A DNA stretch of 21,132 nt from a virus (IMGVR_UViG_3300037191_001672:1-21132), one strand, 5' to 3'. Numbered from the stretch's first letter, positions 2,475-20,732 are shown. Numbers and translations are program-made. Notes: generated from the letters alone by a model not told the origin.

Positions 2475-3088
2475 CCCGTAAAAATATTTTGATAGTATCG
2501 GTACCAAGAACTGCATCTACATATTATCAAAGGGCTATGGCTCAAGAACACAATCTTATTGATGCCGGTGAAAAGCTTGAAACTATTAACTCAATTTATA
2601 GAAGCGATATAAACCCTTATATCGCTAAAGTGATGTTTTTAAAATTGGGGCGCTATATCGTACACTACCAGGATATTATTAAAGAGTGTGAAATACATGT
2701 ACTAGCCCCAAGAGAAGATATGGTTGATCACATAATGTCAAATCTTCTAATGCAATATAAACAACAGACTGATGGCTATGGCGAATATTGGTCAGTATCA
2801 TATGATAGAGATAAAAATAAAGTGTTAAACAATCTTGGCGATATAAAGGTACCGTATGAATATGTGACGGATGTTTCTGCTTACCATCTAATGCAAGCTC
2901 GCACTTTAGGAAAAATGACGCAATATGATAAGAAGATTACTTTTGAAGAAGTTATCGGACTACAACTACATACCTACCCAAATCATAAAGTATTTGAATC
3001 GCGCGAAGACAAGATGAGGTATTTTGAAGAGCCTGAAAAAACATTAGAGTATCTGGAGGCGTTAACATCATGTCATTTGCTGATTTAG
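2471..3088 (+). CDS. Sulfotransferase-like protein
   Basis: I place the start at ATG 2471 rather than the in-frame ATG at 2423, because it forms an ATGA overlap with the previous stop and puts the nucleotide-binding motif at the N-terminus. The 205-aa product begins with a beta strand and loop, ILIVSVPRTASTYYQRAM. PRTAST (residues 12-17) resembles the 5'-phosphosulfate-binding loop (PRTGST type) of PAPS-dependent sulfotransferases. The protein is short for the family and I cannot point to the 3'-phosphate-binding segment with confidence, so activity is unproven. It would transfer sulfate from PAPS to an unknown acceptor in the cytoplasm. It sits between radical SAM genes and overlaps the next by 19 bases, so it probably belongs to the same pathway. 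It could instead be another P-loop-like protein. Confidence 0.6.
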   Translation: MTRKNILIVSVPRTASTYYQRAMAQEHNLIDAGEKLETINSIYRSDINPYIAKVMFLKLGRYIVHYQDIIKECEIHVLAPREDMVDHIMSNLLMQYKQQTDGYGEYWSVSYDRDKNKVLNNLGDIKVPYEYVTDVSAYHLMQARTLGKMTQYDKKITFEEVIGLQLHTYPNHKVFESREDKMRYFEEPEKTLEYLEALTSCHLLI

Positions 3089-3870
3089 TAAATAAGCAAG
3101 TTAGAATTGCGCTAGACCTTTCTACATATTGTAATGCAGCTTGCCCACAATGTCACCGTACTGATCCTAACGGGCTTGGTAAGATGCCATGGCTTCCACT
3201 TATAAAATGGTCGTTAGAAGACTTTACACGAAAGTTTCCGCCAGGATCAATAGACTTTGTTTCACAGTTTGAAATTTGTGGAACTTGGGGTGATCCTATT
3301 ATGAGTAAAGATGTTGGCAAAATATGTAAATATATTATCGATAACTCGGATGCTCAAATACATTTGAATACAAACGGCGGGATGCGAACAGAAACTTGGT
3401 GGGAAGATCTTGGAAACTATTGTAAAGAGCGCCTGACGGTATATTTTGATATTGATGGTGTTGATAACGAAATGCATCAGAAGTACAGGAAAGGTGTAGA
3501 TTTAAACATAACGCTTAACAACATGGAAGCACTTTCTATTACACGTGCTCATACAAAAGCGTTTATAATTCTATTCAAACACAATCAAGATTATGTCTAT
3601 GATATAAGAAAAATGTGTAGAATGTACGGTGCCCAAGAAGTCTATATTATTAAGTCTGATAGATTTTTGATCAATGATAGGTTTGAGTTTATTAATGAGT
3701 TTGGTGAAAAAGAAGTTCTTGAAGAAATAACTAAAGACTTAAATCACATAATTCAAAATCCTTGGATCGATAATGCTTCAAAGAATATGATGGCAACACA
3801 TAATAAAACTGACAAAAGCAAGTATGCTAAAGATTGGACAATCCATGGACACAGATCTCACAGAGAATAA
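3070..3870 (+). CDS. Radical SAM core protein, stand-alone (pair A)
   Basis: The 266-aa product carries C21-x3-C25-x2-C28 (CNAACPQC) after a first beta strand (RIALDLSTYC), typical of the radical SAM barrel start. In place of the usual GGEP it has CGTWGDPI (70-77), which aligns by position with the SAM-amino-group-binding GGE loop. A later FDIDG and FKHNQD are shared with the pair B protein at 4170. There is no C-terminal Cys-rich SPASM region: the protein ends shortly after the barrel, and that domain is encoded by the next, overlapping gene. The start has GGAGG about ten bases upstream and overlaps the sulfotransferase gene by 19 bases. Reaction and substrate are unknown. Confidence 0.82.
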   Translation: MSFADLVNKQVRIALDLSTYCNAACPQCHRTDPNGLGKMPWLPLIKWSLEDFTRKFPPGSIDFVSQFEICGTWGDPIMSKDVGKICKYIIDNSDAQIHLNTNGGMRTETWWEDLGNYCKERLTVYFDIDGVDNEMHQKYRKGVDLNITLNNMEALSITRAHTKAFIILFKHNQDYVYDIRKMCRMYGAQEVYIIKSDRFLINDRFEFINEFGEKEVLEEITKDLNHIIQNPWIDNASKNMMATHNKTDKSKYAKDWTIHGHRSHRE

Positions 3871-4198
3871 ACCATGCATTACGTGCAAGTGGTTAAATGA
3901 AGAAAAAATACTCGTAAACCCAGATGGTCAGGTACTACCGTGTTGCTATTTAGGTAATACCAATTTCTTAAACCTATCAGATCCATCAAACAGGTCTGGC
4001 TGGGATAAGGATGGGTCTGTATTAAATAAGTATAAAAAGAATAGGCATAAGTATAATTTGAATGGCCACACCCTTGAAGAAATATTGACTTCTGATTGGT
4101 TTAACGTAGATCTTCCTGAATCATGGGAAAGCTATGAAACTCTTCCATCTGCATGCAGGACCTTTTGTGATGAACCAGACACTACTCCACTTTCTTGA
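3845..4198 (+). CDS. Stand-alone SPASM-like Fe-S domain protein (pair A)
   Basis: The 117-aa product looks like the C-terminal auxiliary domain of a SPASM radical SAM enzyme without its core: C11-x2-C14, then NPDGQVLPCC (C33-C34), then a helix with LEEILTSDW, and finally C104-x3-C108. In fused enzymes the same order (Cys, PxGxxxxCC, IxxIWxS, CxxxC) ligates one or two auxiliary [4Fe-4S] clusters. I chose ATG 3845 over 3824 because a GGA sits six bases upstream and it starts just before the first Cys pair; 3824 cannot be excluded. It overlaps the radical SAM core gene by 26 bases in the +1 frame and overlaps the next core gene too. It probably docks onto the pair A core in trans (inference). 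A programmed frameshift joining the two is possible, but I see no classic slip site. Confidence 0.75.
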   Translation: MDTDLTENKPCITCKWLNEEKILVNPDGQVLPCCYLGNTNFLNLSDPSNRSGWDKDGSVLNKYKKNRHKYNLNGHTLEEILTSDWFNVDLPESWESYETLPSACRTFCDEPDTTPLS

Positions 4199-4868
4199 AA
4201 GATCTAATCCGCACGTAAACTTTTCTCGTACTATCAACATGGATATATCTAATAAATGTACGTTAGAATGCCCATGTTGCAGACGCTTACAGCATATGAA
4301 AAAATATGGTAAAGTTTTAGGTGAGACGCTTTCTATAAAAGACTTTGAAAAGTATCTTAAGTATTTTGACCATTTTGATTTTAGTGGACAAGTTTCAGAC
4401 CCGTCTATGCATCCAGATTTTAAAGGCATATTGCATAAGGTTATAGAGTATGGTAAAAGTGCCTCAGTACACACAGCAGCATCACATAAGCCAGTAAAGT
4501 GGTACAAAGAAATATATGAAGAATGTACTAATGAAAATATTTCGTGGTTTTTTGGAATAGACGGACTACCAGAAGATTCACACAAATATCGTGTAAGGCA
4601 AGACGGCAAAAAGCTTTTTGATATGATGAAGATGTCTACAGAATACATGGATCCTAATAATATCATATGGAAATACATTGTATTCAAATACAACCAACAT
4701 GATATTGAAACTTGTAAAAAAATGGCACGTGATATCGGCGTCATATTTAATGTCGTGTATTCAAACCGATTTCCGTCCGAAGAATTCAGGCCAGACACAG
4801 AATTCCAATCTACGATACCAATGTTAAATAAAGTATATTATCCTGACGGAAGTGAAGAAATATGGTAA
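4170..4868 (+). CDS. Radical SAM core protein, stand-alone (pair B)
   Basis: With the start at ATG 4170 (AGGA nine bases upstream; an in-frame ATG at 4134 is the alternative) the product is 232 aa. The cluster motif is C30-x3-C34-x2-C37 (CTLECPCC, with one extra Cys at 36). The GGE-equivalent loop reads FSGQVSDPSMHPDF, again ending in DP. Shared landmarks with pair A (DxSxxC start, F-x-IDG, HxYR, FK-x-NQ) show the two cores are paralogues. The C-terminal SPASM region is absent and is supplied by the next gene, which begins seven bases before this stop. Length is below that of a complete SPASM enzyme, consistent with a core-only protein. Function is unknown; it likely acts with the gene at 4862. 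Confidence 0.8.
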   Translation: MNQTLLHFLERSNPHVNFSRTINMDISNKCTLECPCCRRLQHMKKYGKVLGETLSIKDFEKYLKYFDHFDFSGQVSDPSMHPDFKGILHKVIEYGKSASVHTAASHKPVKWYKEIYEECTNENISWFFGIDGLPEDSHKYRVRQDGKKLFDMMKMSTEYMDPNNIIWKYIVFKYNQHDIETCKKMARDIGVIFNVVYSNRFPSEEFRPDTEFQSTIPMLNKVYYPDGSEEIW

Positions 4869-8209: not shown

Positions 8210-9241
8210 ATGAAACCACTTCAGAATATAAATTTTGTACTGTCTAATAGATGCAATGCTACTTGTGTGTGGTGCCCGGCAAGTCGTGGCACTAAAAGTA
8301 ATTTTGATATGGACAAAGAGTTAGTATTTAAAATTATAGACGAAGCGGCTCACCCTGATTTTCCGTATGAATTGCAGCGTATGCATATGAGTGAAAATGG
8401 CGAGGCACTATATCATAGAGACTTTGTTGAGATCCTTCGATATATTAAAAAGAAACTTCCTAATGTGAAGGTTGATATGCTAAGCAACTTTGGACTAATG
8501 TCTAAGAAGGTTGCTGAGATACTTGTGAGAGAAAAACTGTTCGATTCTATTCAAGTTAATATTGATGGACACAACGACGAATCTTATAAGGCTGTCAAAG
8601 GTATTCCGTTTAAATCTGTAATGAAAAACCTAAAACATTTCTTAGGTTTGCGGATGGAACATTATCCTGATTTAGATTTTGGTATTAACGTAATGCCTGC
8701 CTTTGAATATGCTGCCACAATCTTCTCGGTATATGACAAGAACCCAATTCAAATTCCGGCTGGTACAAGTGTACCATTTAGCTCATACAGTTTGGTATGT
8801 AAAAGCCTAACAGAAATATTAGGTGAAGATATATTCAACTCACTGAGTGTAGTTAGACATAGTAGTTCAGGTATGTGGGCAGAAAGACCTCGATTTAAAT
8901 CAGGAGAACTTAAAGCTCACCCAGATTCTAAATGTCCTATGGTTAATGTTATGACAGAAACTATGTATGTAGCACCTAACGGAGATTTCTATGCATGCTG
9001 CCTTGATGATAATCAGGACTTGGTTGTAGGAAATCTGAAAGAGCAAACCTTAATAGAAGTTTGGAATTCACCTGAACGCCGAAACTTTATGAACAATATT
9101 AAGATGCATAACTATGGTAAGATTGGCTATCCATGTAATACTATTGGCGCCTGTCAAACCATAAATAACGCTGATCCCGATCATTGGAAAAATATCGAAG
9201 ATCAGTATAGCGATGGAGATTCCGTTGTCTTCGAAGAATAA
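8210..9241 (+). CDS. Radical SAM/SPASM protein, fused form
   Basis: The 343-aa product has the radical SAM motif C15-x3-C19-x2-C22 (CNATCVWC) at the very N-terminus. The GGE-equivalent loop is SENGEALYHRDF, and IDGHNDESY is a typical mid-barrel element. The C-terminal SPASM region has C242, APNGDFYACC (C263-C264), VGNLKEQTLIEVWNS, C309 and C315, enough for auxiliary Fe-S clusters. SPASM enzymes often modify ribosomally made peptides, but the family is broad and the substrate here is unknown. Unlike the 3070-5242 pairs, core and SPASM are fused. It starts three bases after gp33 with a weak ribosome site and is followed by promoters for gp32, so it sits inside the replication/late-transcription block rather than the accessory operon. 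Confidence 0.85.
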   Translation: MKPLQNINFVLSNRCNATCVWCPASRGTKSNFDMDKELVFKIIDEAAHPDFPYELQRMHMSENGEALYHRDFVEILRYIKKKLPNVKVDMLSNFGLMSKKVAEILVREKLFDSIQVNIDGHNDESYKAVKGIPFKSVMKNLKHFLGLRMEHYPDLDFGINVMPAFEYAATIFSVYDKNPIQIPAGTSVPFSSYSLVCKSLTEILGEDIFNSLSVVRHSSSGMWAERPRFKSGELKAHPDSKCPMVNVMTETMYVAPNGDFYACCLDDNQDLVVGNLKEQTLIEVWNSPERRNFMNNIKMHNYGKIGYPCNTIGACQTINNADPDHWKNIEDQYSDGDSVVFEE

Positions 9242-9332: not shown

Positions 9333-10232
9333 ATGTCTTTTGCAGAACTAAAACGAAATAAAAGCTCAATCTCTAAACTCATCCAAGCAGCCGAAACTGC
9401 TGGCGGTGGTGGAGAAAAGAAAAGCTACGGTGATGATCGTATCTGGAAACCAACAGTAGATAAAGCCGGCAACGGTTATGCTGTCCTACGTTTCCTTCCA
9501 GCCGGTGAAGGCCAAGAACTTCCTTGGGTTCGGTATTGGGATCACGGTTTTAAAGGCCCAACTGGCCAATGGTACATCGAACGGTCTCTTACATCAATTG
9601 GCCAAACAGATCCTGTCGGTGAATTGAATTCCAAGTTATGGAATACAGGTATCGAAGAGGATAAAGGAACTGCACGCCAACAAAAGCGTCGGTTACACTA
9701 TGTCTCAAATATTCTAATTGTATCAGATCCTGCTAATCCTGAGCGTGAAGGCAAAACCTTCTTGTATCAGTATGGTAAGAAAATCCATGACAAAATCATG
9801 GATATGATGCAGCCAGAGTTTGCGGACGAAACTCCTACAAATCCGTTTGATATGTGGGAAGGTGCAGACTTTAAACTTAAGATTCGTAACGTTGAAGGCT
9901 ATCGTAATTACGATAAGTCTGAGTTTGCTTCTCCTGCAGCTATCTCTAGCGATGAGGATAAGCTTGAAGCTCTATATAATGGTATGTACGATCTAGCAGA
10001 GTTTGAAGATCCTAAGAACTATAAAACATATGCTGAGCTTAAAGCCAAGCTTATGAAAGTTCTTGGTGAATCTGCAGATGCCGGTCAGCAGTCATTGGCC
10101 CAGGCTGCTCAAATGAATGAGCCAGCGCCTGATCCAATGTTTAATGCTCCGGTAACGGCAGAGTCTATTAGTGAGAAATCAAATGATGATGACACACTAT
10201 CATACTTTGCCAAGCTTGCTCAAGACGATTAA
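9333..10232 (+). CDS. gp32: Single-stranded DNA-binding protein, T4 gp32-like
   Basis: The 299-aa product has the three-part gp32 plan. A short basic N-terminus (FAELKRNKSSISKL, residues 3-16) is the cooperativity domain. The OB-type core includes LRFLPAGEG, HGFKGPTGQWYIERSL, KRRLHYVSNILIVSDP and KIRNVEGYRNYDKSEF. A flexible Ala/Pro-rich linker leads to an acidic tail (SNDDDTLSYFAKLAQDD) that in T4 recruits replication partners. It coats ssDNA during replication, recombination and repair. The T4 core holds Zn through His and Cys residues, whereas this protein has no Cys at all: the region corresponding to the T4 zinc loop reads TSIGQTDPVGELNSKLWN, as I recall from marine T4-like phages. It ends tail to tail with the minus-strand tape-measure gene, the two stops sharing TTAA. 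Confidence 0.9.
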   Translation: MSFAELKRNKSSISKLIQAAETAGGGGEKKSYGDDRIWKPTVDKAGNGYAVLRFLPAGEGQELPWVRYWDHGFKGPTGQWYIERSLTSIGQTDPVGELNSKLWNTGIEEDKGTARQQKRRLHYVSNILIVSDPANPEREGKTFLYQYGKKIHDKIMDMMQPEFADETPTNPFDMWEGADFKLKIRNVEGYRNYDKSEFASPAAISSDEDKLEALYNGMYDLAEFEDPKNYKTYAELKAKLMKVLGESADAGQQSLAQAAQMNEPAPDPMFNAPVTAESISEKSNDDDTLSYFAKLAQDD

Positions 10233-12550
10233 AATGCCCCTGGCATAAGAGCAAAGGGATCGCCTGCAGAGGCGGTCCCATTTAAGTTTGTGGAGTTAGC
10301 ACTAGAAGAATTATTGTTTGCAGTATTAGTTGTATTGTTGTTAACAATAACTGACGAAATATTTGCGGCTAGCTGTGCCTGCAATACCTGGACATTTTCT
10401 AACTCCCTACGAGTTTCATTATCCAACTGCCTAATTTTCTTTTGGCTAGAGGTATTCCTATTATCAATACGAGTTTGGGCTGCAGCTCTTGTTGTTGCAT
10501 CACCTACGCCTACATCAATTGCCGGAATAAGATTAAACGCCGGTGTGATAAATGTTTCAGGAATATCAATTTTAGGAAGTTTAAACCTGAAGTTTTTAGA
10601 AATCATCAAGTATAGTTCATCACCAAGATTTGATATAAAGTTAGCAGCCTTTTCAAAGCCTGACTTAAATCCGTTAACTAGTCTTTTAACACTGAATGAA
10701 ATCTGTGCTACTAGAATATCTTTCATTAGGCCAATATTATCACCAAGAGCAGTGACTATATCAGACAGGCTAAATGACAGTCCGCCTAGATTAACCTCAC
10801 CACTAAACTTACTTGATAACCAATTTTTAACGCCGTTAAATGCCATTACAGCAAGATCACCTATACTGTAGTCTTTCCATTTAGAAAGCTCTTCAGCTTC
10901 TTCTTTAAATCCTAATTTTCCGGCTAGCCATGATGTAATGCTTAATATCGCATCCTTGACAAGGTTAGGCACGATTGTCGTCACATTGATTAGTGATGCA
11001 ATAATGCCTTCCATACCCTTATCAAATACAAATAGCTTCTTGACATACTTCCATGCATCAGATACGGCGAAGCCTACTATCATTCCGATACTATCAGTAA
11101 ACTTTGTTACACCGTCTACAGACCACTTGAATATACCGGTGAAATAATCAAATACAGGTTTTATAGCATTATCATATATCCACGCACCTATGCTGGCCAC
11201 GCCATCAAGAAGTGTTGTCCATAATGCCTTTAAAGACTCGACCGGATTTGCAAACACCCCTTTAACCCATGTCACGACACCAGAGATTGCATCTCCTATA
11301 AATGTCTGTAGCTTAAATTGTTTACCTTCTTCGTCAGTTGTTTTCCAACCGAACATAGAACCAATCCACTCTATTGCTTTATTGATTGGATAGTAGAATA
11401 TATCTGTCAGTGTTGTTGCACCTGCAACTAATAGGTTAAGTGAACTAGTCCATAATTGCTTTAATGCTGTTAAAGGATCTGTAAACAGCGTACCGAACCA
11501 TTCCATGACACTAGTAATCATATCTTTTATTGGTTTAACAAAGTCAATACCTTTTAGCCATTCGGCGCCTTCATCAAAGCCAAGCTTCTTTAGACCCCAT
11601 GCCATCAGATCCTTTAAAAGGTTTAGCGGAGCACCAATGAAGTCTGAAAGTGCAGTACTAATACCGGCCGTAAACTTTTCGAATATCGTTCCTTCGGTGC
11701 CAATAAAATCTGTGACACCTTTGAAGGCTGACACAAGAACACCGATAGGCCAAAGTATTTTACCAAATACTGCTAAAAGTTTTGTTGCGCCACCCTTCAT
11801 AAAGGTAACTATCTTTGATCCAAAACCACTCGTAAAGAATTCACCAATCGCAGCCCCAACTTTAGTGATAGGACTAAACAGCGATTTCATCTGGATAAGG
11901 AATTTGCCTATCCTTGGAGACTTAAATTTACCATCTTCGCCCTGCAAAGCAATAAGCTTTCCATCAATGCCGATACCAAATCCTTTGAGTATGCTTGCTT
12001 TGGCATTCTTAAATGCATTAGCTATTTGCCCACCAATAGATGTGATCTGTTTGCCATCTTCACCCTTAGGAAGAACTGCACTCATACTAAAGAATCTTAA
12101 TACGCGTGCCCGAACATTTAGAAATTTTTGATTAAGGGTTTTAGCCAATGACTCTGGAAACAGATTGCCAAACTTTATATTACTAATACGCTTTATGATA
12201 GGAAGTTCCCACCCGCGCATGCCCGCAAATGCAGCAGCTACAGCAGCAAGGCCTGCCGTAAAGCCTGCAAGCATTTTTCCAATGTTAGCAAGTCTACCAA
12301 AGAAAGCATTGATATTACCGCTAGCATTGTCAAGGGGTTTAAAGCCGGTCATTTCTTTTTTTACGACCTTAGGGGTTTTAGGACCTTCTAGCTTATCTTC
12401 TAGTCTGTCACCAGCACCACGTGCCTGCAATTTAAACTGCTTTGCAAAAGTAGAATTAAGCTTCATAATAGCGTCAGTCGTATTTGACTGCGCCTTATTA
12501 CCTTTTGCAATTTCGTCTTTTAAGTCAGACAGTGTTATTTTATCAGCCAT
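10229..12550 (-). CDS. Tape-measure-like tail protein (gp29-position)
   Basis: The 773-aa product follows gp26 and its frameshift extension on the same strand, the normal place of a tape-measure gene. A polar, helical N-terminus is followed by a Gly/Ala-rich hydrophobic segment (about 85-110, AGFTAGLAAVAAAFAGM), then a long region of loosely repeated modules with Trp and Pro landmarks (W-x-G-x-LF-x-DPL-x-AL-x-x-LW, then VFANPVESLKALWTTLL). A short coiled coil follows (DNETRRELENVQVLQAQLA) and then an Asn/Ser-rich tail. Such proteins span the tail lumen and set its length; at about 0.15 nm per residue, 773 aa would fit a tail near 115 nm (estimate). T4 gp29 is the functional equivalent at 590 aa; I do not see direct identity. 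Its ATG overlaps the upstream TAA as TAATG, so translation is coupled. Confidence 0.7.
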   Translation of the reverse strand: MADKITLSDLKDEIAKGNKAQSNTTDAIMKLNSTFAKQFKLQARGAGDRLEDKLEGPKTPKVVKKEMTGFKPLDNASGNINAFFGRLANIGKMLAGFTAGLAAVAAAFAGMRGWELPIIKRISNIKFGNLFPESLAKTLNQKFLNVRARVLRFFSMSAVLPKGEDGKQITSIGGQIANAFKNAKASILKGFGIGIDGKLIALQGEDGKFKSPRIGKFLIQMKSLFSPITKVGAAIGEFFTSGFGSKIVTFMKGGATKLLAVFGKILWPIGVLVSAFKGVTDFIGTEGTIFEKFTAGISTALSDFIGAPLNLLKDLMAWGLKKLGFDEGAEWLKGIDFVKPIKDMITSVMEWFGTLFTDPLTALKQLWTSSLNLLVAGATTLTDIFYYPINKAIEWIGSMFGWKTTDEEGKQFKLQTFIGDAISGVVTWVKGVFANPVESLKALWTTLLDGVASIGAWIYDNAIKPVFDYFTGIFKWSVDGVTKFTDSIGMIVGFAVSDAWKYVKKLFVFDKGMEGIIASLINVTTIVPNLVKDAILSITSWLAGKLGFKEEAEELSKWKDYSIGDLAVMAFNGVKNWLSSKFSGEVNLGGLSFSLSDIVTALGDNIGLMKDILVAQISFSVKRLVNGFKSGFEKAANFISNLGDELYLMISKNFRFKLPKIDIPETFITPAFNLIPAIDVGVGDATTRAAAQTRIDNRNTSSQKKIRQLDNETRRELENVQVLQAQLAANISSVIVNNNTTNTANNNSSSANSTNLNGTASAGDPFALMPGAF
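10256..10283 (+). terminator. Candidate hairpin terminator behind gp32
   Basis: GGGATCGCC (10256-10264) pairs with GGCGGTCCC (10271-10279) over nine pairs (one G-U) around a six-base loop, followed by ATTTAAGTTTG. It lies 24 bases after the gp32 stop, where convergent transcription meets. The U run is poor, so termination may be partial. The hairpin is inside the coding region for the last residues of the opposite tape-measure gene. Confidence 0.4.
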
Positions 12551-12741
12551 TATCTTTTACTTTGCTGTTCCTTGGCTCGTTCATTTTCTTCTTTTATATG
12601 TTCAATGAGCATTGTTAAATATACCTCCCTTTCCCATGGTATCATCTCTTCTATTTCGGTTAATGAATAATGATGATGTTGCATCAGGGAGAAATTCGTC
12701 TTAAAGTATCCGATCAGAGATTCGTGAGAAAGGGCTATTAG
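12550..12741 (-). CDS. -1 frame extension of gp26 (tail assembly chaperone-like)
   Basis: Behind the gp26 slip site the -1 frame is open for 63 codons, starting LIALSHESLIGYFKTNFSLM and continuing through SLTEIEEMIPWEREVYLTML to a charged tail ending QQSKR. Its TAA (12550-12552) shares a base with the tape-measure ATG. The extension is compact and helical, and PWERE-x-Y-x-x-L is a pattern I recall from small proteins beside gp26 in marine T4-like phages. An internal ATG (12684) could give a 44-aa protein, but it has no ribosome site, and plausible coding sequence continues upstream of it (GYFKTNFSLM) with no start codon other than by frameshifting. I therefore read it as the C-terminus of a 299-aa gp26 fusion, analogous to lambda gpGT. 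Confidence 0.7.
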   Translation of the reverse strand, partial: LIALSHESLIGYFKTNFSLMQHHHYSLTEIEEMIPWEREVYLTMLIEHIKEENERAKEQQSKR

Positions 12742-13448
12742 AAAAAATCGTTCATACCCTCCAAGGTAATTTTATTTGTGTCACTGCATGATACACATGT
12801 AAACTCCACATCGTGTTTTAGTTTAGGCATCAGCTCAACATACTCACGGATCTTATCAAACTGCTCAGATGTGAGTGATTCAATGAAGTCCATGACTTCT
12901 TGTTTTGGTTCATCTTTCATACTAATGCGTTCATCACCAGTAAGAACTGAGTCAATACACTTAGCAATCATGTCAAAGGTTTGAGTAACCTGACTTGCTC
13001 CATCGGCCATGTCAAGATCGCCTAGATCAGAATATGTTGGCCATTTTAGTTGTACCGAGATTTCATCAGTTAGTTCTATCAGACTAACGACATCCTCAGG
13101 CATATTAATTTTAATTGATTCAAGCGGAATCACAACTTCATTGGCGTGATCGCACTCTTTGCATTTGATAGACACCTTAGATGTTTCGCCTACTGACTTA
13201 GATCTAATCTGTGTGAACATATATTCAACATCAAACGTCGTAAGCTTTGTGCGCTCAATATCTTCGCTAACACACGCAACAATAGTATCTACGATTGCAG
13301 CAAGTGATTGTTTTTGGTCCTGTGACTCCATCGCAAGCATCAGAACCTTCTCTTCTTTTACAAGATAAGGTCTAAAGCGGACAGCTTGTTGTGTCGACGG
13401 TATGGTAATATCGTATTTTGGTGTAGAGTTTAATTTAGGTAAAGCCAT
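12738..13448 (-). CDS. gp26: gp26-like baseplate hub/tail assembly protein
   Basis: The 236-aa product starts MALPKLNSTPKYDITIPSTQ and has the layout of the T4_baseplate family (gp26): a beta-rich N-terminus (RFRPYLVKEEK) and a helical middle. A zinc-ribbon-like C96-x2-C99 (CKEC) is matched by a second pair, C218-x2-C221 (CVSC), near the C-terminus. T4 gp26 is assigned to baseplate hub assembly. The gene ends in DFF and a TAA that lies directly behind a T_TTT_TTC slip site. Part of the ribosomes are therefore expected to continue in the -1 frame for 63 more residues. The start follows the upstream tube-protein stop by one base, indicating coupling. The position just before the tape-measure gene suggests a chaperone role for tape-measure folding (inference). 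Confidence 0.78.
   Translation of the reverse strand: MALPKLNSTPKYDITIPSTQQAVRFRPYLVKEEKVLMLAMESQDQKQSLAAIVDTIVACVSEDIERTKLTTFDVEYMFTQIRSKSVGETSKVSIKCKECDHANEVVIPLESIKINMPEDVVSLIELTDEISVQLKWPTYSDLGDLDMADGASQVTQTFDMIAKCIDSVLTGDERISMKDEPKQEVMDFIESLTSEQFDKIREYVELMPKLKHDVEFTCVSCSDTNKITLEGMNDFF
12741..12762 (-). promoter_or_regulatory. Programmed -1 ribosomal frameshift site in gp26
   Basis: On the minus strand, GGAGGG (12762-12757) is followed by nine bases and then T_TTT_TTC (12747-12741), with the gp26 stop TAA as the very next codon. T_TTT_TTC is a canonical X_XXY_YYZ slippery heptamer. A Shine-Dalgarno-like element about ten bases upstream is the known stimulator of -1 slippage in E. coli dnaX. 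GGAGGG has no suitably spaced start codon in the -1 frame, so it does not serve a separate gene. I see no clear downstream hairpin by eye. Confidence 0.72.
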
Positions 13449-18295: not shown

Positions 18296-19125
18296 TGAGT
18301 CATTATGGTGATAACTTTCGCTGGTTCATGGGCGTAGTAATTAATAACCTAGATCCGCTTATGCTCGGAAGAACACAAGTTCGCATTTTTGGTATCCATA
18401 ACTCGGCGCTAGATGCAATTCCTAATGCCAAACTGCCTTGGGCTACAGTGATGCAACCAACAACAAGCGGCGGTACTTCAGGTATCGGTGCGATGCCTAT
18501 GCTTTTACCGGGTGCACAGGTTGTTGGGTTCTTTATGGACGGCGAAGGATCACAGCTTCCACTTATCATAGGCGTAGTTCCACATCTTGAAGTGCCGTCT
18601 GAACAACAGCTTGTCAAGGCGCAATCAGTCGAAATTGGTTATGGTGTTGGACAAGTCGATCCTGCTCTTGCACGGGCTGTGGGTACAGTAAACAACAGTA
18701 TGGGTTCAAGCGCATCAACGACATCTACTACAGGTATTCCGGTATATCCGCCCGATATATCTCTTGCATGGATAGAACAGACGATCAGAAGTGAAGCAAA
18801 CAAAGTAAGTATTGATCCAAATGTTGCGGTTAGATTATGGAAAGCCGAAGGCGGAGGTCAGTATCAGTCAGGTGTTACTACAGGCAATCAATTAAAAAGG
18901 AATGGTCGCGAAGCATCGTACGGCCCTTTTCAGTTGTATGTTGGTGGAGGTATGGGTAATGATTATGAGAGCGCTACCGGAAGAGATCTTGCGACTGACA
19001 ATACGAAAGCCGGTGTTACTAAACAAGTAGAATTTGCATTGGCCCAGGCAAAACGTGGTGGATGGGGTCCATGGTATGGCCGCAAGCCTGCCGGGATTGC
19101 AGTGTGGGAAGGAATTAGAACCTAA
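18292..19125 (+). CDS. gp5: gp5-like spike protein: OB-fold plus transglycosylase-like lysozyme domain
   Basis: The 277-aa product starts with the gp5 OB domain: FRWFMGVVINNLDPLMLGR aligns with T4 NLNWFVGVVEDRMDPLKLGR, and LPWATVMQPTTS...GIG with LPWMSVIQPITSAAMSGIG. Residues 130-150 form a Ser/Thr linker. The C-terminal domain (about 152-277) is not the T4 lysozyme fold signature. It reads VRLWKAEGGGQYQSG with E186 as a candidate catalytic acid and REASYGPFQL (206-215), the E ... S-x-GPFQ layout of SLT-type lytic transglycosylases. The protein ends there and lacks the beta-helix needle, which appears in the gene at 20729. It would locally open the murein during injection. The start may be ATG 18292 or 18295. 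Confidence 0.78.
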   Translation: MMSHYGDNFRWFMGVVINNLDPLMLGRTQVRIFGIHNSALDAIPNAKLPWATVMQPTTSGGTSGIGAMPMLLPGAQVVGFFMDGEGSQLPLIIGVVPHLEVPSEQQLVKAQSVEIGYGVGQVDPALARAVGTVNNSMGSSASTTSTTGIPVYPPDISLAWIEQTIRSEANKVSIDPNVAVRLWKAEGGGQYQSGVTTGNQLKRNGREASYGPFQLYVGGGMGNDYESATGRDLATDNTKAGVTKQVEFALAQAKRGGWGPWYGRKPAGIAVWEGIRT

Positions 19126-20732
19126 TGGTTTCGTTTAACAAAGTTAATAGTGTTTTATCTACATTTGACCAAAGACTTCCGCGTGATGGTTTGCTTGCTG
19201 CAGGCAACCAGGTTGTAGGAGAGTATAATGCTCAGCTCACATCAAAGCTTGGTGGGTCTCAAGGAGAAATACTAAACGGAATTCAAGCCCTGACTTCTGT
19301 CGCAGATTATCCAGGACAGTTTGGTGACAATGTATTTGGTACAGCAACAATAAAACTTACTGGTGGTGTAGACGGGTTTGCATCATCGCTTATAACTGAC
19401 ATTGCAAGTTTATTTTCGGGTGGTTCTGGTGGACATTCAGTATTTACTGACGTATTAAACACTGCTGCGGCATTGGCTGCAGTAACTCAGGGTAGTCCGG
19501 CTTCAGGATATTTGCAAAGTTATTTTGCTGGAAGTGGTGGAGAGTCTATTCAAAGGTTATTAGGTACTGCAACAGGTAAACCTATAAGCCAATTGCTTTC
19601 AGTAGTATCTACGGTGCAGGCTGCAGGGTCTGCAAAGTTTATTCAAAATGCTATGAAGCAAGCGTTGGGTGCGACACTTGGACCTGTTATTTCAGAATTT
19701 AATGTTCGGGCAAATCTTACTATTGGCACTGCGCTTGGCTCGACTCTACAAAACATTGTCGATGCGCTTGATACTCCGGTCGTACAGATTATATCAGGGC
19801 TTACACAAGGTAAACTAAAAACTGCACAACTCAACACAATTGCTCGCCTTATTGAGAATGGTAATTACACCGGAGCTATTGCGGCTGTCGCCGGAGTATC
19901 AACATTACCTATCGGAGAAATTGAATCTGGTATTAATGGGCTGAGTACTAAACTGTCTGATCGTGTTACGTATGGAAATGCTGTACTTACTCTGCCTAAC
20001 TTTGATATTGGATCAAATGCACAAGGTTGGGATGGCGTTCGTACAAATACACCTAATTCTGATTATAACGCAACTCTTGGCAGTAGTAGCGGTAGTATTA
20101 CTGGCGGCGGGTCTAGTAGTGGCGGCGGGTCCAGTAATTCAGAGCCTTATAACTTCACATACATTGCAGGTTCCGAAGAGCTTGAAGCCGAGATGAGATC
20201 ATCTTCACGTGAGATAACCGAAGTTGTTATCCATTGGACTGCTACGTTTATGGATCAAGATATTGGTAGTGAAGAGGTACATCAGTGGCACCTGGCTAGA
20301 GGATTCAGCGGCTGCGGATACCATTATATTATTCGAAGAGACGGAAGACTTCAGCGTGGTAGACCTATAGGTAAGACTGGTGCACATGCAAAAGAAAATG
20401 GTCATAATAATAAATCGATTGGTATATCACTAGCGGGTGGATATACTTGTGTGTCCGGTACTTCGGGCTATCAGAATTTAGTAGGTAAAGAATCATTCAC
20501 TACAGAACAGAACAAGGCGATGAATGAATTTTTGGCTACGTTCTATAAAGTATTCCCGGGTGGACAGGCATTTGGGCACAGTGATACCGATCCAGGTAAT
20601 AAAATTGATCCTGGTTTCAGTGTTCCTAGTTATGTTACATCGGTATTTAATAAGAATAATATTACGACTGGTACGAGTGCACCTCTCACGGTAGCACAAA
20701 TATCAACAGCACGGAGCACAGCTACAGTATGA
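19125..20732 (+). CDS. Baseplate-associated N-acetylmuramoyl-L-alanine amidase (Amidase_2)
   Basis: The 535-aa product has a 300-aa N-terminal part of Gly/Ala/Ser-rich helical sequence (ISQLLSVVSTVQAAGSAKFI and similar) that I do not recognise. A Gly/Ser linker (318-338) follows, then an Amidase_2/T7-lysozyme-type domain (about 343-510). Zinc ligands are H370 (VVIHWTAT), H485 (FGHSDTDPG) and D495 (KIDPGF). Y399 (GYHYIIRRDG) and K493 match the catalytic Tyr and Lys of T7 lysozyme, and H421 (GAHAKENG) also fits. It would cut the amide between MurNAc and L-Ala. Lying between two gp5 module genes, with TAATG and ATGA overlaps, it is probably a virion enzyme used at entry rather than an endolysin; the N-terminal part may anchor it to the hub (inference). 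Confidence 0.82.
   Translation: MVSFNKVNSVLSTFDQRLPRDGLLAAGNQVVGEYNAQLTSKLGGSQGEILNGIQALTSVADYPGQFGDNVFGTATIKLTGGVDGFASSLITDIASLFSGGSGGHSVFTDVLNTAAALAAVTQGSPASGYLQSYFAGSGGESIQRLLGTATGKPISQLLSVVSTVQAAGSAKFIQNAMKQALGATLGPVISEFNVRANLTIGTALGSTLQNIVDALDTPVVQIISGLTQGKLKTAQLNTIARLIENGNYTGAIAAVAGVSTLPIGEIESGINGLSTKLSDRVTYGNAVLTLPNFDIGSNAQGWDGVRTNTPNSDYNATLGSSSGSITGGGSSSGGGSSNSEPYNFTYIAGSEELEAEMRSSSREITEVVIHWTATFMDQDIGSEEVHQWHLARGFSGCGYHYIIRRDGRLQRGRPIGKTGAHAKENGHNNKSIGISLAGGYTCVSGTSGYQNLVGKESFTTEQNKAMNEFLATFYKVFPGGQAFGHSDTDPGNKIDPGFSVPSYVTSVFNKNNITTGTSAPLTVAQISTARSTATV
20103..20138 (+). repeat. Tandem 18-base repeat encoding the Gly/Ser linker of the amidase
   Basis: GGCGGCGGGTCTAGTAGT (20103-20120) is followed directly by GGCGGCGGGTCCAGTAAT (20121-20138), differing at two positions. 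Together they encode GGGSSSGGGSSN, the hinge between the N-terminal part and the amidase domain. The unit number could vary between relatives. Confidence 0.85.

Follow-up and report, generated by a model that had tools for sequence, protein, structure and literature searches.

The stretch of DNA analyzed here (the window) is 21,132 nucleotides long and comes from a virus, IMGVR_UViG_3300037191_001672:1-21132. It carries a homologue of the T4-type gene gp26, at the end of which a second reading frame opens in the -1 position and runs to the start of a probable tape-measure gene. The locus very probably encodes a tail assembly chaperone (TAC) of the lambda G/GT type, made in a short (TAC-N) and a long form (TAC-NC) by a -1 frameshift. 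The features of the locus, all on the minus strand, are as follows.

12738..13448 (coding 13448-12741), minus strand: gp26 (TAC-N), short form in the zero frame, 236 amino acids; PF12322 and phrog_150
12757..12762, minus strand: GGAGGG, Shine-Dalgarno-like, inside gp26 and 9 nt before the heptamer; direct reading
12741..12747, minus strand: slippery heptamer T_TTT_TTC; direct reading
12738..12740, minus strand: TAA ending the short form, immediately 3' of the heptamer; direct reading
12550..12741, minus strand: -1 frame extension (TAC-C, "gp51"), 63 codons and TAA; phrog_634
12550..13448, minus strand: predicted gp26-gp51 frameshift fusion (TAC-NC), 299 amino acids; inferred
10229..12550, minus strand: probable tape-measure protein, 773 amino acids, presumed client; weak PHROG matches and position

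The 3' end of gp26 reads TTG GAG GGT ATG AAC GAT TTT TTC TAA on the minus strand. Translation of the -1 frame from C12741 gives LIALSHESLIGYFKTNFSLMQHHHYSLTEIEEMIPWEREVYLTMLIEHIKEENERAKEQQSKR (63 amino acids), and its TAA stop occupies 12552-12550, the last A being the first base of the ATG of the tape-measure open reading frame (ORF), with which it overlaps by one base. The other two frames of the extension region are closed many times. No start codon occurs in the -1 frame between the slip and the upstream stop at 12774-12772, and the earliest in-frame ATG, GTG or TTG of the extension in the window is codon 20. An earlier reading of the sequence alone (the sequence-only reading) had placed here the heptamer, GGAGGG nine bases upstream, the adjacent gp26 stop and a 63-codon -1 frame; all coordinates were exact on re-reading, and the proposed 299-residue fusion corresponds to 236 codons plus 63 amino acids. 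In the window, as expected of a frameshifted chaperone, a short ORF is overlapped by an open -1 extension and the tape-measure gene follows directly; the tape-measure identity comes from weak matches.

Slip site and stimulators among relatives

The comparison covered 349 loci that carry a gp26 homologue, 243 of which had been gathered with gp26 queries only, so that the extension was not a criterion of selection. The non-redundant set comprised 150 lineages with gp26 DNA identities below 80%. Because the sequences share ancestry, they do not count as independent, and nominal probabilities come out too low. The sequence TTTTTTN, in T_TTT_TTN phase and no more than 8 codons from the gp26 stop, occurred in 343 of the 349 loci, mostly 0 or 1 codon before the stop, in all 243 loci of the gp26-only collection, and in all 150 non-redundant lineages. 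In every one of the 334 complete loci with the site, the -1 frame extended for 40 codons or more, and the range across the non-redundant loci was 55-69 codons. The median open length after the slip was 62 codons in the -1 frame (minimum 55), whereas frames 0 and +1 reached medians of 1 and 5. The slip Phe codon was TTT in 150 of 150 lineages and TTC in none, compared with 13-50% TTC in other conserved Phe columns and 29% for Phe elsewhere. The product of these codon-choice probabilities, 10^-61, presupposes independence of lineages, which fails, and is usable for its direction only. The codon preceding the slip Phe always ended in T.

Named phages with the slip site include members of Kyanoviridae, Schizotequatrovirus, Chrysonvirus, Pootjesviridae, and Busanvirus. 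In Pelagibacter phage Mosig (L085:1498-1525), the zero frame of gp26 continues eight codons beyond the slip, which lengthens the overlap of the frames. No phased run of six T was found in the remaining 6 of the 349 loci, those of T4, Krischvirus MIZ4, Tulanevirus avDM3, Twarogvirinae PhT2, Det7 (Ackermannviridae), and Vibrio phage D495. The Ackermannviridae (L093, L353-L367) and D495 (L096) carry one PF12322 gene and a conserved -1 extension of 54-59 amino acids without the T6 heptamer; the Ackermannviridae junction reads instead as an invariant GAR ATT TTC ATT TAA TTTTTG.

The anti-Shine-Dalgarno (anti-SD) match upstream of the heptamer was retained along with the site. In the non-redundant loci, the octamer that begins 15 nt upstream of the heptamer had a mean predicted pairing energy of -6.2 kcal/mol over a background of -0.6 (standard deviation 0.5), and the match was sharply positioned, 18 to 11 nt upstream of the heptamer. 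An energy of -5 kcal/mol was reached at that position in 65% of lineages versus 6% of octamers elsewhere in gp26. Codon choice followed the same direction: the Glu codon before the conserved Gly was GAG in 62 of 93 Glu cases (GAG:GAA 62:31), the ratio in the gp26 body being 949:2543, a preference for GAA of 2.7 to 1.

Downstream of the heptamer, RNA folding was more stable than the protein requires, with a mean z of -1.40 under synonymous-codon shuffling and 37% of lineages at p<=0.05, compared with +0.41 in the control region. About one third of lineages had strong hairpins beginning 2-7 nt beyond the slip, in differing registers; examples within 40 bases after the heptamer are L301, L334, L082, L098, L103, L083, and their relatives. 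On alignments of two hairpin types in different registers, 97% of cells were paired in the P-SSM2-type group and 98% in the S-CAM-type group; both partners had changed in one pair of the first group and in two pairs of the second, a modest covariation support as most pairs are invariant and the groups were picked for having the stem. In the window itself, no stable hairpin follows the heptamer (z +1.28 by the same shuffling), and downstream RNA structure was rejected as its own stimulator.

Among known systems, Escherichia coli dnaX has a Shine-Dalgarno-like stimulator about 10 nt before a heptamer with a six-base homopolymer, A_AAA_AAG, with a hairpin downstream; frameshifting there yields the shorter of the two products. 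The upstream Shine-Dalgarno-like element is common to dnaX and the window, whereas the window has T_TTT_TTC, no hairpin, and a longer product.

Predicted chaperone fold, gene copy number, and known systems

The window gp26 matches PF12322 (T4_baseplate) with an E value of 2.5e-62 and 210.9 bits, the cut-off being 24.5, and phrog_150 with 2.3e-65; its best match, at 47%, is in phage C48C1. No match was found for the gp26 profile among the sequences of solved structures, and NCBIfam holds no model for gp26 or the extension. The AlphaFold2 (AF2) model of gp26 reached a mean predicted local distance difference test score (pLDDT) of 92. In a Foldseek search of the PDB, it matched 2ob9, the HK97 tail assembly chaperone, with the highest probability (0.87, E 0.38). 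A second structural comparison with residues 1-96 returned 3fgx, 2ob9, and 3klu with Z of 7.8, 7.1, and 6.6, respectively, followed by 5ir0 with 5.0 and unrelated folds with 3.1 and below. Both 3fgx and 3klu (YqbN) are taken here to belong to the same tail assembly chaperone group as 2ob9. These HK97-type structures resemble gp26 residues 1-96 in fold but share 7-13% identity with them, and gp26 is about twice as long. From about residue 90 onward, gp26 weakly resembles small zinc ribbons. The N-terminal part of gp26 is thus predicted to have a tail-assembly-chaperone-like fold, at moderate Z.

Whole-record profile searches of 22 phages for PF12322 found one gene in 16 of 16 slip-bearing phages and two in T4, Krischvirus, Tulanevirus, and Twarogvirinae, which have no slip. 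With one gene plus the slip in the first kind of phage and two genes without it in the second, both could produce a short and a long form, through slippage or from separate genes. The family of the extension, phrog_634, occurred once in each of 20 records, and in the four two-copy phages it forms the C-terminus of gp51, in one frame. Both gp26 and gp51 of T4 belong to PF12322, as does the window gp26; T4 gp26 is without the extension and T4 gp51 ends in it. In T4, unlike the window, the two forms come from two divergently oriented genes without a slip site. The window is not of the T4 gp51 type, having a zero-frame stop at 12740-12738 and the extension in the -1 frame. In-frame natural fusions among slip-bearing lineages were also sought because phrog_150 reaches into the extension; this reach is explained by its T4-type gp51 members.

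As proposed for the window, lambda gpG/gpGT slips by -1 near the end of the short form, and in both the gene lies directly upstream of the tape measure. The lambda slip sequence is G GGA AAG, unlike T_TTT_TTC, and the window gp26 differs further by its additional C-terminal, metal-ribbon-like part. The two lambda products act on the tape measure (PMC5009743), and the same design is proposed for the window.

The products of the frameshift could also serve baseplate hub assembly instead of tape-measure handling. For T4, gp26 and gp51 are both classed as chaperones of hub assembly; the second is needed but is not part of the final particle (PMC3004832). However, the T4 tape measure gp29 is itself listed in the hub in the same source, so the two readings may be one, and the predicted chaperone fold, a place directly ahead of the tape measure, and a design with two products fit known tail assembly chaperones (PMC5009743). 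A hub role in place of tape-measure handling is therefore considered unlikely, though it is the best placed of the alternatives.

The sequence-only reading knew of no such frameshift in gp26 of the T4 superfamily, and this has to be withdrawn, since Vladimirov, Gautam and Davidson (Virology 2022), as later papers report, identified these genes in T4-like phages. PMC10885494 refers to them for some T4-like phages carrying separate short and fused long genes, and PMC12846349 attributes to them the finding that T4-like TAC-N genes have poly-T slip sequences. A 2016 review had described G-T frameshifting as conserved in long-tailed phages "except T4" (PMC5009743). The frameshift finding is therefore correct but not new, and the window is a further member of the known T4-like TAC-N/TAC-NC genes, with which it shares the gene family and the two-product logic. 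The abstract of the 2022 article (Virology 566:9-15) reportedly states that frameshifting is conserved in several T4-like groups and that T4 uses genes 26 and 51.

The extension and its annotation as gp51

Against phrog_634, the gp51 family ("baseplate hub assembly catalyst"), the extension scores an E value of 3e-28; it is found in 664 phage records and is conserved as the short "gp51" of marine T4-like phages. Its ratio of nonsynonymous to synonymous substitution rates (dN/dS) was 0.067, a median of 2916 pairs with overlapping ancestry, and that of gp26 itself 0.149. For codons 2-10, which precede any start codon in most lineages, the value was 0.163. Strong purifying selection thus acts on the -1 segment. 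The AF2 model of the extension is all-helical (pLDDT 86); a fold search returned no solved structure with E below 4.9, and its profile gave only chance coiled-coil matches among the sequences of solved structures. The sequence-only reading had called the extension protein-like and poorly explained by independent translation, and the late first start in the window and the selection upstream of starts bear this out. The extension is a real coding sequence; it is not an unknown one, as it equals the roughly 60-residue "gp51" annotated in most cyanophages. The length of cyanophage gp51, about 20% of that of T4 gp51, was noted by Sullivan et al. 2010 (PMC3037559).

Most GenBank records annotate this segment as a separate small gene, which would have its own start or be re-initiated after the gp26 stop. 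An ATG within codons 1-5 of the extension occurs in 27 of 150 lineages, and the P-SSM2 and S-PM2 records place the gp51 start at such a codon, about codon 4. The annotated starts scatter, however, to about codon 20 in S-CAM3 and S-RIM8, codon 27 in C48C1, and about codon 34 in ACG-2014a, and the records of S-CAM1, P-RSM1, and ACG-2014d annotate no gp51-type gene. Despite this scatter, similarity extends back to the slip site, and the conserved, selected stretch starts right at the slip in all lineages. A Shine-Dalgarno-like sequence precedes the first in-frame start in only 3 of 150 lineages, the first start in the window lies past the best conserved stretch, and in P-SSM2-type phages the annotated ATG sits within the hairpin stem. 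A separate gene would also leave the phased T6 and the anti-SD element unexplained, and is regarded as very improbable.

Slippage of the RNA polymerase on the T run would fuse the frames as well, and a homopolymer of six or more T is in keeping with it. The run is exactly six T long in 100 of 150 lineages, which is short for transcriptional slippage, and it always stands in X_XXY_YYZ codon phase. Conserved ribosomal stimulators, i.e., an anti-SD element at fixed spacing and 3' hairpins, should not matter to a polymerase, and this explanation is given as little credence as a separate gene. A sequencing indel that split one in-frame gene, conceivable in error-prone homopolymer runs, is practically negligible, as it is refuted by the same arrangement in isolates and hundreds of independent contigs with a zero-frame stop 0-1 codons from the heptamer in nearly all.

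Proposed mechanism, tail module, and implications

A -1 frameshift in gp26 best explains what the comparison establishes: a conserved, phased slip site, a positioned anti-SD element, an extension under selection, and a copy-number switch with T4. In the proposed mechanism, most ribosomes would stop at the TAA and release gp26 (TAC-N). In a fraction of them, the internal GGAGGG would pair with the anti-Shine-Dalgarno sequence of 16S rRNA, and the two tRNA-Phe on T_TTT_TTC would slip back by one base, TTT TTC re-pairing as TTT TTT. Reading would then continue for 63 more codons to yield the 299-residue TAC-NC. The probable role of both forms is to coat the product of the adjoining downstream tape-measure gene, with the extension probably bringing in the tail tube subunit. 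Slippage, its ratio, and the partners given for the products are inferred, as are the fixed product ratio and the tape-measure binding that the sequence-only reading had envisaged.

Several points weigh against this interpretation. No frameshift product has been experimentally seen at this locus, and the window is without a stable hairpin. In 27 of 150 lineages, an early ATG might serve as the start of a separate gp51. According to the warning of the aligner, a Z of 7-8 falls within the range of chance best matches, though the top three matches share one functional group. The -1 frameshift and the G/GT-type chaperone, as first proposed, nonetheless passed all of the comparative checks applied, namely slip phase and codon choice, the anti-SD element, selection even ahead of any start codon, copy-number complementarity, and the predicted chaperone fold.

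The tape-measure ORF gave weak matches to phrog_6090 (E 5e-5), phrog_4197 (E 6e-4), and annotated tape measures. It is very divergent (10229-12550): no phage record covered 80% of it, and the best match, in Methylophilales phage Melnitz, had 30% identity over one third of its length. As the genes upstream encode a tail tube (phrog_45) and a DNA end protector (phrog_429), the locus is part of a tail module, that of a marine T4-like phage with affinity to Kyanoviridae. Elsewhere in the window, five radical SAM ORFs lie within one 9-kb stretch (323-1435, 1425-2474, 3070-3870, 4134-4868, and 8210-9241); three have SPASM domains, and the ORF at 4134 matches weakly. A 535-residue ORF at 19125-20732 has an Amidase_2 (peptidoglycan amidase) domain in its C-terminal part and adjoins a gp5-like hub gene whose lysozyme part went unrecognized.

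On balance, the data favor one near-universal stimulator in T4-like phages other than the T4 group, an anti-SD element within gp26 some 9 nt ahead of T_TTT_TTN, together with an optional 3' hairpin that evolved repeatedly in at least two registers, and a cyanophage "gp51 gene" that, across several hundred genomes, does not exist as an independent gene. The standing annotation is corrected: cyanophage "gp51", described in 2010 as lacking the first ~200 residues, is the tail end of a gp26 frameshift fusion and not truncated. The "except T4" gap in the G/GT rule of long-tailed phages is closed, since T4 has two paralogous genes that replace the frameshift. As a clean natural series, the locus is also well suited to work on the tuning of ribosomal slippage in the presence or absence of a hairpin.

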